A stretch of DNA of 64,000 nucleotides from Cordylochernes scorpioides (Eukaryota > Arthropoda > Arachnida > Pseudoscorpiones > Chernetidae). Below the pieces are notes generated by a model that was not told the origin of the DNA, did no database searches, and worked only from the letters and a program-made list of their open reading frames with translations. The stretch lies in assembly GCA_030710605.1 (NCBI GenBank), contig CP092877.1:44190406-44254405 (forward strand), in the 5' to 3' direction. Of the stretch, positions 1-63,488 are shown in pieces. Each line of letters opens with the position of its first letter. Position 1 is the first letter of the stretch. The translations under genes and the position numbers were made by a program.

Positions 1-59
1 TTACTGAAACGTCACACACTATTTATTTATTTGGATTTGGTCTTATTACCTTGTGTTTA
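1..59 (+). repeat. Fold-back family FB1, right-arm fragment
   Basis: The first 59 bases repeat, with few differences, the right arm of the fold-back element ending at 5558 (ACGTCACACACTATTTATTT followed by the GGTCTTATTACCTTGTGTTT end). The rest of the element lies outside the window. Confidence 0.8.
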
Positions 60-165
60 CTTATCCACATTGTGCCACTCTATCTCAGTTTAGTTGTGCC
101 ACGTAGTCTACAGTGGAGGCTTGTGGATAGCAAGGTTGTTGTGTATCGGCAGATCTGTCCTACAG

Positions 166-2921: not shown

Positions 2922-3074
2922 GTAATTACCTCTCACCCCTAATTGTAGCAAATAAAATGTTCTTCTTCATTAAATAATCGGAGTGCTGTTGAGGAAACAC
3001 TCTGAAGCCCTCTCCAATTATTTAGGAATGTCAAACATTTCATTAATTTGGATTTGGTCTTATTACTTTATGTT

Positions 3075-3144
3075 AATAAATTAAATTTAATTGCCATCTA
3101 TCATTAAAATTTTAACGATAGATGGCAATTAAATTTAATTTACT
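3075..3144. repeat. Short perfect palindrome in MED15 intron
   Basis: Two ~30 bp arms (AAATTTAATTGCCATCTATC and its complement) flank a short AT spacer. Just upstream, 3040-3075 resembles the arm end of fold-back family FB1. Confidence 0.6.
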
Positions 3145-4162: not shown

Positions 4163-4273
4163 TATTGTGATCTGGTCGTAGACTGGCAGCTGTTACATGG
4201 TAGTTTATATATACAGGTAGCCCCCCCTATGGCATAACACTGTTCCTCTATTGATAAGGCACAATTTGGATTA

Positions 4274-5323
4274 TCTCTTTATATATAAAAGTCAATGTCT
4301 GTCTGTTTCGCGATAAACTCAAAAACTACTGAACCAATTGGTACCAAATTTTGCATGTCGCTTTTTATAAACCTGGGGAAAATTTTCGGCTACATTTTGA
4401 TTAGTATTTTTGGCTATTTCTTTTTTTCATTTGAAGAACTTTTTTTACGCGGAGTAAATAAGAGGCGAAGTAACAACACGAGGCCAATTAAGCGACCAAT
4501 GAGCATTCTGCATTTCTTTTCAAGTTTCCTGCGTACTTTTTTAAAATATCTTTTTATACGAGTGTCACTTTTTTTTACAAAAGTATTGAGGGAGAAATTT
4601 ATATTACTAATTTACAGGCTAGTGCACACAATGCAATTAAAAAAAAAAACTTTACAAAATTAGCGTTACTGTATGTAAACAATGGTTTTCGTATTTTTTA
4701 TTAATTTTTGTTCTGGCCTTTTTTTTATATATAATAATAAATAAAAGTTACAGTCAATATGATAATTCTTAAAATTAAACAAACAATAGTCAATATGCAA
4801 AAAATACAAACTAACTTAATAAGATATTCTAATATCAAGCAATATGCAAAATCTCTCCTAATATTTAAATGTTCATATTATTAGCATCTTAACGGCGTTT
4901 ATTCGTTTTTATGTACTCCTGCAGGAAGGCAGAAATACTCGAAAGTTCGATATTGTTTTAATAAAGTGTAGAGAATCTCCAGAACTATTTTTTACCCAAA
5001 GAGTGTAATAGACCTACAGAGGATGCACCACTATATATAAGAGTTAACACGCTGGGGCGGGTACCTCAGAGGTTGGGTGGAAAATCTGCCAACTATTTGA
5101 ACTATATTTAAAACACCTAAATGGATTGAAAAATAAATAAATAAAAAATGCCTAAATACTAATATATTGCATTTTTGACATCACACATACTTTGTGCCTG
5201 TGATAATGTATTACTTCGGTGTTGCTATTCTATGGCTCTAATACTATTTATTAGTAATGTTCTTTCAGTATGAAGGAAATTGCACTCGGGGAATTCCCGG
5301 GCGAAGCCGGGTCATTCGTCTAG
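4274..5323 (+). mobile_element. Non-autonomous Helitron
   Basis: The 5' end is TCTCTTTATATATAAAAG after A, the 3' end a hairpin (CCCGG-GCGAAG-CCGGG), then TCATTCGT and CTAG before T. The text after the 5' end (AACTACTGAACCAATTGGTA) is typical of arthropod Helitrons. There is no Rep/helicase reading frame; the longest ORF (4295-4663) is chance reading through AT-rich DNA. Confidence 0.8.
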
Positions 5324-5473
5324 TAGATTATAAACACAAGGTAATAAGACCAAATCCAAATAAATAAATAGTGTGTGACGTTCGGTAACAGTGTTGTTAC
5401 CATCTTCAGACAAAAGTACTGAATGAGAAAATTTTTCCACAGCATGCTGTGGAAAATTTTTCTCATTCAGTAC

Positions 5474-5519
5474 TTTTGTCTGAAGATGGTAACAACGCTG
5501 TTACCGAAACGTCACACAC
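5474..5519 (+). ncRNA. Hammerhead-ribozyme-like motif in FB1
   Basis: Core CTGAAGA (5480-5486), one extra T, stem II of 7 perfect pairs (5488-5494 with 5499-5505, loop ACGC), then GAA and ACGTC (5506-5513). Stem I has three pairs (TGT before the core, ACA after the cleavage position). Stem III would be the self-complementary ACGT, so activity would need a dimer. The left arm holds the mirror copy with one A of GAAA missing. The match to the hammerhead core is seen directly; activity is unknown. Confidence 0.5.
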
Positions 5520-5842
5520 TATTTATTTATTTGGATTTGGTCTTATTACCTTGTGTTTACTGTTCCTCTATATAGTACTAGACAACACGACTTTTAACAC
5601 ATTTAAAAACTAAATTCCCCCATAAAACAATGTCAAAGTACTGTTATATTACATTTTATAGATTTGGGTCTTCCCTATAGCACAGTTTCACACAACATGT
5701 CATTATCTTGGAACTTCTCAATCATGCTATAGGAGGGTTACCTGTATTGGTCCAATGATCCTGTTGTAGTTTGACAGCGATAATAACTACTGTTACATGA
5801 TGAAGGGATGTTTGTAAAAGTTTCTCTGGGTGTGTGTTGTAG

Positions 5843-9785: not shown

Positions 9786-9955
9786 AACGTAGAACAAGAA
9801 AAAATCCAAATTACAAAATTGTGTGTGATTGTTTTGGTAACAGCGTTGTAACCATCATCCAAAATAAAGTACTGAATTTATTAATTTGGATTTAATCTTG
9901 TTACCTTATGTTTCTAACCTCTTATAATTCAAATTGTATCTTATCACTTGTTCAA
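9786..9955 (+). repeat. Fold-back family FB1, degenerate copy
   Basis: GGTAACAGCGTTGTAACCAT and TAATCTTGTTACCTTATG are recognisable FB1 words. The hammerhead-like core is eroded here. Confidence 0.55.
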
Positions 9956-11391: not shown

Positions 11392-11554
11392 TGATAAAGC
11401 ACAATTTGAATTATAAATTATAATACAAGAAAATAAGACCTAATCTAAATAATTTATTAGGGTGTGACGTTTCGGCAACAGCATTGTCACCATCATCAGA
11501 CAAAAGAATAAAATATGTGTTAATATTATTTGGATTAGGTCTTATTTTCTTGTA
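11392..11554 (-). mobile_element. Fold-back element FB1, short intact copy
   Basis: 163 bp with an exact 13 bp target duplication TCTTTGTTTAGAA (11379-11391 and 11555-11567). It inserted directly behind the half-LINE, inside that element's own target duplication. It starts TGATAAAGCACAATTTG and ends in GGTCTTATTTTCTTGTA. Confidence 0.8.
11464..11506 (-). ncRNA. Hammerhead-ribozyme-like motif, canonical core
   Basis: On the minus strand the order is CTGATGA, extra T, a 7-pair stem II (two wobble pairs), GAA, ACGTC. Stem I has three pairs. Compared with the copy at 5474 the base at core position 7 is T instead of A (this position is free in hammerheads), and stem II differs at two places by wobble pairs only. 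Confidence 0.5.
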
Positions 11555-11570
11555 TCTTTGTTTAGAAATA

Positions 11571-15104: not shown

Positions 15105-15330
15105 TCTACAATACCAAAAGGGAGACAAAGTCTGACTGTCATGTGGTAGATAGCCAACCAGTGACAGCAGCTCCCCATTATGGAGACTTATGGACTATAT
15201 TTTGATATAATTGCTACAGTGTCTGGGGAAGCCGACGCAACCTAAGTTCCAGGGATGACAACAAGGTCAAGAAATTGCTAGTCCCCCCAAATATCAATAT
15301 TAGGATTCTTCAATGGCTCTTCTTCTAAGA

Positions 15331-15492
15331 TACAAGATAATAAGACCTAATCCAAATAATTTAATAGTGTGTGACATTTCGGTAACAGCATCAGACAAAA
15401 TAATGAATTGTTTACCAAATAGTTACACACTATTAATTTATTTGGATTAGGTCTTATTTTTCTTGCATCTATAATCCAAATTGTGCTTTATC
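15331..15492 (-). mobile_element. Fold-back element FB1, deleted centre
   Basis: Begins TACAAGATAATAAGACCTAA and ends with the complement of GATAAAGCACAATTTGGATT. Stem II of the hammerhead-like core is deleted here. The target duplication is not clear. Confidence 0.65.
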
Positions 15493-30937: not shown

Positions 30938-31229
30938 TTCTATGAAAAATAGACACTTAGGCCAGTTAGTTTTTTTTTTCTCAACGTTTCGACAAAAATC
31001 TTTTGTCTTCGTCAGGAGAAGAAAATAAGAGCAATTTTTAACGCCTTGCCAAATGCTTTATTTTTATTTACTTCTCCTAAAAAAAAAAAAAACTACTGAC
31101 AAAGACAAAAGATTTTTGTCGAAACGTTGAGAAAAAAAAAAAAAAACTCTAACTGGCCGAAGTGGCTATTTTTCGTAGAAATATGAATGCCGGGGGGGGG
31201 GGGGGGGGGGGCAGGCAACTTCTATCTTT
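30938..31229 (-). mobile_element. Fold-back element FB2
   Basis: 292 bp inside unit 1 with an exact 13 bp target duplication AAGTATATTTAAT (30925-30937, 31230-31242). Unit 2 has the empty site at 59479-59491. Ends TTCTATGAAAAATAGACAC and its mirror near 31165. A run of 20 G lies at 31192-31211. Confidence 0.85.
30978..31020 (-). ncRNA. Hammerhead-ribozyme-like motif in FB2
   Basis: Minus strand: CTGACGA, extra A, stem II GACAAAA/TTTTGTC with a 3-nt loop, GAA, ACGTT. Stem I is five perfect pairs (TTCTC with GAGAA). All invariant core positions are kept. Stem III is only the self-complementary ACGT. The right arm has the mirror copy with G8 changed to A (CTGACAA, 31096-31102). Confidence 0.55.
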
Positions 31230-61060: not shown

Positions 61061-61626
61061 TATTTTTTAAAGAAACATTCGTAATTTGATGCTTCCATTT
61101 CTTATATATAGATGGCATGTCATCGCCTTATAATTAATTGTTTTTATTTATTACTGTGGAACGCCGCACCTAACGACAACATGGCATTATGGTTTGGAGA
61201 GCCATCGTCTATGATAGCAGATCACCTCTAAAATTAATGTTTACTTTTATTGATTTTCCCCATTCTGTTTACCCTACTACAACTCCACATTTTAAGAGAG
61301 AGATCACTAGCTGGAGATTCCCTCTTCTATCAAAATCACGTAAAGCAGGATTCTACAGTAGCTACAAGATTCCCTCTATATAGAAACGACACCTTAACAT
61401 TTATAAACAAATTTCTTATTTTCAAAATTATTAATCATATTTATACTTATAAATGACTGCGGCGTATAATTATAAAGCTATACAACCAGTTTAACCGCAT
61501 AAGTTTCTTTTTATTTATGAAAAATCATTTTAATTTCAAAGAGAAATAATTTAATATTTCTAACTTTTGGATGACGTATGAAAAGGTTGAATATATGAAG
61601 AGTGATGGCGAACGGAAAAATAAAAG

Positions 61627-61701
61627 TGTCCAGGAGCGGGAATCGAACCCACAACCTTCTGCTTACCGGGCAGGTGCCATGTCCACTAAGCTATCTTGGA
61701 C
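61627..61701 (-). other. tRNA-like sequence, copy 1
   Basis: 75 nt; the acceptor stem GTCCAAG/CCTGGAC has a mismatch. T arm GTGGG-TTCGATT-CCCGC. The anticodon loop CCGGTAA would give GGT (Thr), but has C instead of the invariant T33. No T run follows. Confidence 0.55.
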
Positions 61702-62212
61702 GTATTTCTCCGTTCGTAACTAATATTTAAACTGACTAATAATACTTATAAATGACTGCGGCGTATAATTATAAAGCTATACAACCAGTTTAACCGCATA
61801 AGTTTCTTTTTATTTATGAAAAATCATTTTTAATTTCAAATAGAAATAATTTAATATTTCTAACTTTTGGGTGACGTATGAAAAGGTTGAATATATGAAA
61901 AGTGATGGTCTATATATGAATGGATGACGTATGGAGGGTGAAAAATATGAAGAGTAATGGCGAACGGAAAAATAAAAGTGTCCAGGAGCGGGAATAATAT
62001 ATAGACCATCACTCTTCATATATTCAACCTTTTCATACGTCATCCAAAAGTTAGAAATATTAAATTATTTCTCTTTGAAATTAAAAATGATTTTTCATAA
62101 ATAAAAAGAAACTTATGCGGTTAAACTGGTTGTATAGCTTTATAATTATACGCCGCAGTCATTTATAAGTATTATTAGTCAGTTTAAATATTAGTTACGA
62201 ACAGAGAAATAC

Positions 62213-62287
62213 GTCCAGGATAGCCTAGTGGACATGGCACCTGCCCGGTAAGCAGAAGGTTGTGGGTTCGATTCCCGCTCCTGGACA
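62213..62287 (+). other. tRNA-like sequence, copy 2
   Basis: As copy 1 with a perfect acceptor stem that extends to 8 pairs (GTCCAGGA/TCCTGGAC), one more than a normal tRNA. Pseudo-tRNA or SINE head. Confidence 0.55.
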
Positions 62288-62564
62288 CTTTTATTTTTCC
62301 GTTCGCCATTACTCTTCATATTTTCACCCTCCATACGTCATCCATTCATATATAGACCATCACTCTTCATATATTCAACCTTTTTCATACGTCATCCAAA
62401 AGTTAGAAATATTAAATTATTTATCTTTGAAATTAAAAATGATTTTTCATAAATAAAAAGAAACTTATGCGGTTAAACTGGTTGTATAGCTTTATAATTA
62501 TACGCCGCAGTCATTTATAAGTATTATTAGTCAGTTTAAATATTAGTTACGAACGGAGAAATAC

Positions 62565-62639
62565 GTCCAGGATAGCCTAGTGGACATGGCACCTGCCCGG
62601 TAAGCAGAAGGTTGTGGGTTCGATTCCCGCTCCTGGACA
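62565..62639 (+). other. tRNA-like sequence, copy 3
   Basis: Identical to copy 2 over its 75 nt. Confidence 0.55.
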
Positions 62640-63488
62640 CTTTTATTTTTTCCGTTCGCCATTACTCTTCATATTTTTCACCCTCCATACATCATCCATT
62701 CATATATAGACCATCACTCTTCATATATTCAACCTTTTCATACGTCATCCAAAAGTTAGAAATATTAAATTATTTCTCTTTGAAATTAAAAATGATTTTT
62801 CATAAATAAAAAGAAACTTATGCGGTTAAACTGGTTGTATAGCTTTATAATTAATCGAATTGTTTAAAGATGGCGTCTCACATAACAATGGAGATTGTTT
62901 AACTCCCTCAAATAAATAGTCGTAAACATAACTTCAGATGCATGCATCATGAAAAAGCTTATATATAACTTAAAATAAGATCATTTATTGAATATCTTCA
63001 AATGTTTCGAGGCGGCTTGGCGCACCTTTCTACAAGGAGAATTTGACTCGAACCTCAGGAACTCAAGAGAATTTGAGCATTTCTGATATCTAGGAAATCC
63101 TTTTTTTGGATAATTTCTTATATATAAGAACTAAAGCCATAAAACTCTAAATATGAGAAATGTGAAAAGACCAATAATGGTATCTGTTGTGGACAGGAAT
63201 TTATGCTCATTCATAGAATTGATTCTTAATTTGAAAGTTGTCACAAGCTGCCTATTAAATTTAAAATGCTAAATAGTAATATAAACTTGATAGAAGAAGA
63301 CAAAAGATCGAATTTTCAAGAGAAAGAGGAATCAACTGAGAATAAATTGAAAGAAAATCAAGATTATAATTGACAAGATTATAATATGCCTAAAGACTAG
63401 TAGATAATCAGGCTCGGAAAATGGAAAACAAGAAAGAAAGAAAGAAAGAAAGAGAGGACAGTAAAAAAGATCGGAGCTGAAGAATTAA

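Follow-up and report, generated by a model that had tools for sequence, protein, structure and literature searches.

A palindromic repeat with a hammerhead-like core in Cordylochernes scorpioides is very probably a single Penelope-like insertion of two truncated cDNAs

Penelope-like retroelements (PLEs) with ribozymes or inverted copies have been described before, and several of these accounts serve here for comparison. PAc, a Poseidon-type PLE of Anolis carolinensis, carries a hammerhead at the junction of pseudo-LTR (pLTR) and ORF, with the start codon at stem II; two RT starts bound its tail, and both target strands are cut and extended (PMC11167929). The Penelope element of Adineta vaga has an ORF of ∼840 amino acids, direct and inverted pLTRs, a 31-bp tail on one inverted pLTR, a short target site duplication (TSD), and palindromes at the inverted junction; this account makes no mention of a ribozyme (PMC3846280). 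The minimal type I hammerheads of PLEs have the usual core residues, a stem II, an almost absent helix III, and a self-complementary ACGT that would suit a dimer (PMC7761336, PMC6155905), and dimer action has been reported for PLE ribozymes (PMC7761336). Retrozymes are noncoding, ribozyme-bearing units dispersed by reverse transcription; their ribozymes form direct repeats, and their cycle is believed to include a circular RNA (PMC7761336).

We examined a snap-back repeat, FB1, in a 64,000-nucleotide stretch of the Cordylochernes scorpioides genome (the window). FB1 and its longer relatives resemble the two PLEs in these features of layout, with two-ended cutting and extension presumed from the insertion products, and they resemble the minimal hammerheads in the features listed. 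The ribozyme copies of FB1, however, are inverted rather than tandem, in contrast to the minimal type I hammerheads (PMC7761336, PMC6155905), and have an extra base between A9 and stem II; its TSD is 13 bp, compared with 8 to 10 bp in A. vaga (PMC3846280). An extra core base is also cited for a viroid hammerhead (PMC6155905). The features of the insertion are collected in Table 1; arm positions are numbered from q1 at 5445 in the right arm. The tail ends at q144 in this numbering and at q147 in that of L058, a longer copy with some additional bases beyond q77; as far as q77, the two numberings coincide.

Table 1. Features of the FB1 insertion and of its tail site (window coordinates unless a locus is named)
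Feature	Position	Strand	Remark
Left copy of the 13-bp TSD, ACTGTTCCTCTAT	4239..4251	.	Exact match to 5559-5571
Distal part of the PLE tail of the left arm, reverse complement	4252..4273	-	100% match to q122-144 (= L001 422-444); other copies share the tail
Helitron-like insertion splitting the tail	4274..5323	+	Starts TC, ends in a GC-rich hairpin and CTAG, host A/T; insertions at this site, in this orientation, recur in other copies
Proximal 7 nt of the tail, TAGATTA	5324..5330	-	Reverse complement of TAATCTA
Left arm: inverted, 5'-truncated pLTR	5331..5444	-	Hammerhead on the minus strand
Palindrome center AGCATGCT, junction of two truncated copies	5441..5448	.	8-bp overlap, both arms start at q-3
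Right arm: 5'-truncated pLTR, q1-q114	5445..5558	+	Ends near the proximal start site, without tail
Hammerhead-like motif CTGAAGA-T-(GGTAACA ACGC TGTTACC)-GAA-ACGT-C	5480..5513	+	Predicted cut between 5513 and 5514
AUG from A9, the extra U, and G10.1	5486..5488	+	In FB1, start of a frame of 29 codons
Right copy of the 13-bp TSD	5559..5571	.	= 4239-4251
Helitron-like insertions at the tail site	4274-5323; L011, L019, L030, L034, L035, L038, L041, L043

A sequence-only reading of the window had described FB1 as two mirror arms whose insertion duplicated exactly 13 bp of the target, and both observations hold. The segment 5331-5558 is an almost perfect inverted repeat (5381-5444/5445-5508, 64 nt, 97%; 5331-5382/5508-5559, 52 nt, 100%), with one T, by eye, missing from the left arm relative to the right, and the duplication is identical at 13 of 13 positions. 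The RNA is predicted to fold into one long hairpin of -183.7 kcal/mol (200 shuffles, -42.8 ± 4.7; z = -30). The insertion itself is longer than that reading had it and extends out to 4252, through a 29-nt tail (q116-144) on the left-arm side. This tail is split at TCTA/TAATCC by a 1,050-bp element that begins with TC and ends in a hairpin and CTAG between host A and T, and that we take, from these terminal features, to be Helitron-like. Because of this split, the left copy of the duplication lies ∼1.1 kb to the left of the previously noted start at 5331. In PLE copies elsewhere, the right arm runs on for the 29 nt of the tail and then meets the 13-bp duplication.

The unit of arm and tail is the pLTR of a PLE with full-length copies in this genome. 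Among the loci seeded with the arm (best 40 of 1,064 candidates), arms stood head to head, separated by at most 1,119 bp, and FB1-type arms enclose anything from no spacer to RT and endonuclease (EN) coding sequence. Where the spacers are longest, they code for a GIY-YIG endonuclease (L033, 25.2 bits against a cutoff of 22.6; L026, by eye). In L040, one side carries RT-like motifs together with an endonuclease, and the opposite side has a piece of endonuclease in inverted orientation. The RT piece of L040 alone had no Pfam match; a search with it gave 25,083 first-look candidates, and the 150 that were scored all showed 89 to 100% identity. L058 consists of a partial copy, a pLTR, an 846-codon frame starting with ATG, and another pLTR, all in one direction, with the two direct pLTR arms (1461-1607 and 4285-4408) flanking the ORF on the same strand. 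L059 has two frames of this 846-codon type placed head to head. Pieces of the L058 ORF matched RVT_1 (34.9 bits; cutoff, 29.6) and GIY-YIG (25.5 bits; cutoff, 22.6), the domains of an EN+ PLE, and the EN piece of L059 reached 21.1 bits, just below the GIY-YIG cutoff of 22.6; scanned uncut, the 846-residue ORFs matched neither RT nor EN. A sequence search of the PDB for the RT gave weak matches to bacterial RTs, and a search of a phage collection gave no match. Judged by domains and layout, L058 and L059 are built as EN+ PLEs, with pLTRs, tail, and inverted copies, and the link of FB1 to Penelope-like elements that had been proposed is upheld by the RT and GIY-YIG domains of the full-length copies.

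Five further, diverged arms of the same family lie within the leftmost 16 kb of the window (1-76, 3025-3083, 9793-9945, 11393-11559, and 15327-15492), and an arm search of the window found none to the right of this region. The copy at 11393-11559 has, by eye, TCTTTGTTTAGAA on both flanks.

Hammerhead ribozymes share the invariant core CUGANGA ... GAA and an NUH cleavage triplet. The first of these blocks is given as the hammerhead core sequence CUGAnGA in PMC10085705. The right arm of FB1 contains both the invariant core and the triplet, in the order that the sequence-only reading had seen: CTGAAGA (5480-5486, q36-42), an extra T (5487, q43), a 7-bp stem II with a loop of 4 nt (5488-5494/5499-5505, q44-61), and then GAA (5506-5508), ACGT (5509-5512), and C17 (5513), which together make up q62-69; helix III is almost absent. 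Stem II thus follows A9 after one extra base rather than directly. The extra base had been noted before and is present, but it is not peculiar to FB1, since 120 of the 122 arms with a letter at q43 have T there (98%).

A layout scan requiring a stem II of at least 5 bp, run on 268,084 bases chosen largely for this PLE family, gave 89 matches, 77 of them with GAAACG; the 85 that fell in the family of FB1 all carry the extra base, but the search string included it. Each of five same-size first-order Markov sequences gave 1 to 5 matches, none with GAAACG. Genome wide (2.6 Gb), the exact 34-nt motif, with any base at N7, occurs 10,161 times, and a reversed control pattern 0 times. The Rfam hammerhead models gave no match to the motif: no family reached its gathering threshold across the window, and none matched at an E value of ≤10 in 5300-5600 or in L058 1485-1550.

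The only Rfam matches to FB1 were below cutoff, the best of them to miRNA hairpins. One of these, to the miRNA family mir-2513 (RF04108), covers 5371-5519 at 64.5 bits, under the cutoff of 89. The mir-2513 consensus has ucuGaaGauGgu in a long hairpin, so that a PLE snap-back might underlie some of the hairpins annotated as miRNAs; a literature search under the name mir-2513 found nothing.

Inverted arms with hammerhead-like cores were also seen in a second snap-back family (window 30941-31185, L022 1685-1826, and L041 5980-6100), which has a different stem II (CTGACGAAGACAAAAGATTTTTGTCGAAACGTT) and likewise one extra base after A9. It may represent a second family of PLEs.

The AUG over the ribozyme opens frames of 29 (FB1), 26 (L058), and 17 (L059) codons, and the long ORF begins 119 to 124 nt further on, so that, in contrast to PAc, the AUG here opens a short frame only (PMC11167929). 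We rejected a need for a start codon as a full explanation of the extra base. The frame behind the AUG is short, and the second hammerhead family, with A in this position, shows that such a need cannot account for the T entirely. Counted from this AUG, the predicted cut lies at 28 nt and the outer ends of insertions at ∼74 to 81 and at 103 (106 in L058); in PAc, the cut follows the ATG by 26 bp, and the main RT start is at +111 to +118, where the comparable point here is the tail end (PMC11167929).

Across 161 arms, conservation is no higher in the hammerhead core than in the sequence on either side of it, with N7 as the most variable core position (71%). Changes in stem II are mostly one-sided, and the first pair has gone from G-C to A-T in 5 copies. 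Two subfamilies that adjoin open ORFs differ at 0 of 12 fixed, 6 of 22 permissive, and 16 of 113 outside positions, a contrast that is suggestive at most. These comparisons give no clear sign of selection on the core and speak, if anything, against a strong constraint. Two CpG sites, q61-62 and q66-67, are among the most decayed positions of the ribozyme (77 to 81% consensus); most changes are C to T or G to A, the pattern expected where CpGs are methylated.

If ribozyme-cleaved RNA were the usual template, arm starts should pile up at the cut, and none of this was seen among 94 truncated arms. Two of them start at q70-71, against ∼3 expected for q69-71 under a uniform distribution (starts being those of local alignments). 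With no peak at q70, we rejected cleaved RNA as the usual template, in agreement with the finding that ribozyme mutants of PAc still inserted in vitro (PMC11167929). The RNA of FB1 has one sense ribozyme, and dimer action in cis is unlikely because, in the predicted fold, that ribozyme pairs with its complement in the antisense arm. Cofolding of two single motifs preferred a stem II duplex to a hammerhead dimer, which speaks neither for nor against activity.

How FB1 came to be palindromic was approached through its relatives. We scored the best 40 of 1,337 candidates for FB1-like palindromes, and centers near q1 are over-represented in the set for this reason. The 40 places represent 32 distinct insertions, since seven groups (for instance, L005/L067, L007/L081, and L065/L077) share both flanks. 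In several of these groups, the copies are oppositely oriented, 25 to 155 kb apart on one chromosome, and by their flanks we read them as local, partly inverted segmental duplication.

The inner ends of the 32 distinct insertions form 23 different pairs between q-27 and q37, and 24 of the 32 are asymmetric; the q-3/q-3 center of FB1 is common to five (FB1, L003, L005, L063, and L073). The outer ends are much more regular: as a rule, one lies at ∼q144 (distal) and the other at ∼q115-122 (proximal). Exactly one tail was found in 36 of the 40 places (28 of the 32 distinct insertions), none in 3, and two in 1; FB1 is counted among the tail-less places because its tail is split by the Helitron-like insertion. 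Among 35 tight inverted pairs, 26 have one tail and 8 none, and a two-tail pair occurs. One tail per pair is thus the rule here, whereas the RT start of PAc in vitro was alike on both strands (PMC11167929).

Duplications matching at 12 to 13 of 13 positions were found in 18 of the 40 FB1-like places (13 of the 32 distinct insertions) and in 20 of 35 other inverted pairs, compared with 2 of 300 mispaired controls. The latter count becomes 18 of 31 after collapsing of shared flanks, which also merges some pairs whose flanks share a repeat and is therefore conservative. The 15 pairs of the 35 without such a duplication may reflect age, nesting, or wrong pairing, and FB1 itself scores 8 in both duplication tests because the Helitron-like insertion displaces its tail. 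It is important to note that the junction statistics rest on 26 to 40 pairs.

Because the inner ends vary, one tail is the rule, and the duplications are 13 bp, we consider it very probable that FB1 is one insertion of an abundant PLE, formed by two 5'-truncated cDNAs joined head to head. The PLE endonuclease would cleave the two strands of the target with a stagger of 13 bp, and each target 3' end would then start a cDNA at either of two positions inside the PLE RNA, ∼75 to 105 nt beyond the ribozyme-overlapping AUG; we infer this two-ended priming from the insertion products. After stopping early, the two cDNAs would be fused head to head; in FB1, the fusion would lie at the self-complementary GCATGC. 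We take the hammerhead to be the ordinary minimal ribozyme that PLEs have where the ORF region begins; FB1 would have carried it along, and it is probably silent there.

The joining step was examined in 31 pairs that had not been chosen by their center. Asymmetric junctions make up 23 of these, all but one with an overlap of ≤5 bp. The other 8 are symmetric (7 of 26 pairs after collapsing of shared flanks), compared with a mean of 1.6 symmetric pairs and a maximum of 6 in 2,000 shuffles, and all 8 overlap in self-complementary sequence of 10 to 30 bp, which suggests annealing of self-complementary cDNA ends. Symmetric junctions fall on stem II of the ribozyme in 5 of the 31 pairs, three of them in one locus, L003 (4 of 26 after collapsing). 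Since stem II is self-complementary, cDNA 3' ends could anneal there, and we raise as a tentative possibility that stem II also acts at the DNA level, the hammerhead hairpin being a favored place for the joining of cDNAs in twin-primed PLE insertions. By eye, the L022 copy of the second hammerhead-bearing family is centered on its own, different stem II.

The main rival for the joining is self-priming, in which a single cDNA, bent back at a hairpin (GCATGC or stem II), serves as its own template, as has been proposed, with an antisense template, for rotifer PLEs (PMC3846280). The 8 symmetric pairs, with their self-complementary overlaps, are what such folding back would produce, but the 23 asymmetric pairs, with their short overlaps, are not. 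Self-priming would also be expected to leave tails on both arms, which was seen in just 1 of the 31 pairs, and the single tail is not easily explained by it. Arms within an FB1-like element are, moreover, hardly more alike (mean identity, 96.2%) than arms of different elements (95.7%); as a sign of a shared template, we dropped this comparison as uninformative. On balance, self-priming appears unlikely for FB1.

The sequence-only reading had taken FB1 to be a tiny nonautonomous passenger moving as a unit, that is, a retrozyme- or SINE-like palindromic ribozyme RNA copied whole by a PLE. The many similar short palindromes (best 40 of 1,337 candidates scored) would be in keeping with this, as would the GCATGC center with its 8-bp overlap shared by the five q-3/q-3 insertions, which may be a small propagating lineage. 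The asymmetry and variety of the inner ends described above, however, argue against copying as a unit, the same arms also occur, in a graded series, around increasing amounts of PLE coding sequence, and the ribozyme copies are inverted, not tandem. Where retrozymes have ribozymes in direct repeats and are noncoding mobile units, FB1 has inverted arms and a coding parent. With 23 inner-end pairs among 32 distinct insertions, we rejected FB1 as a self-moving unit, and a passenger origin is very improbable. That FB1 is an ordinary foldback or MITE DNA transposon whose likeness to a hammerhead is due to chance would fit the short inverted repeat, the target duplication, and the missing Rfam hammerhead match, but we rejected it as almost certainly wrong, given that longer members encode RT and GIY-YIG, that a tail on one arm and varying inner ends take the place of fixed symmetric termini, and that the motif is far above random expectation and at the position reported for PLE ribozymes (PMC7761336, PMC11167929).

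Read as a truncated Penelope-type insertion of two joined cDNAs, FB1 is a mobile element of a known rather than a new kind, and it advises caution: a ribozyme-like core in a snap-back repeat may mark a truncated PLE instead of a novel element. With its 10,161 exact motifs, the genome amounts to thousands of natural records of PLE insertion. Those examined show a 13-bp stagger, two internal starts (usually one each per inverted pair), and truncation without a peak at the cut, so that the poorly understood mechanism of PLE retrotransposition and the unsolved role of the hammerhead become open to counting. Less ordinary here are the symmetric junctions on stem II and the repeated Helitron-like insertion at one site in the tail.

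At that site (TTTATAATCTA/TAATCC), Helitron-like elements with different ends are inserted in one orientation. Of 17 Helitron-like 3' ends in a sequence set that was picked for PLE arms and is hence biased, 9 lie at this site. An exact pattern for the Helitron/tail junction, counting one orientation and one site, occurs 3,246 times genome wide, and its reversed control 0 times; one common Helitron end pattern, which is not nested with the junction pattern, occurs 34,590 times. Elsewhere in the window, tRNA genes lie in repeated blocks at 1182-1537 and 61628-62638, the latter together with large inverted repeats at 61584-62853.
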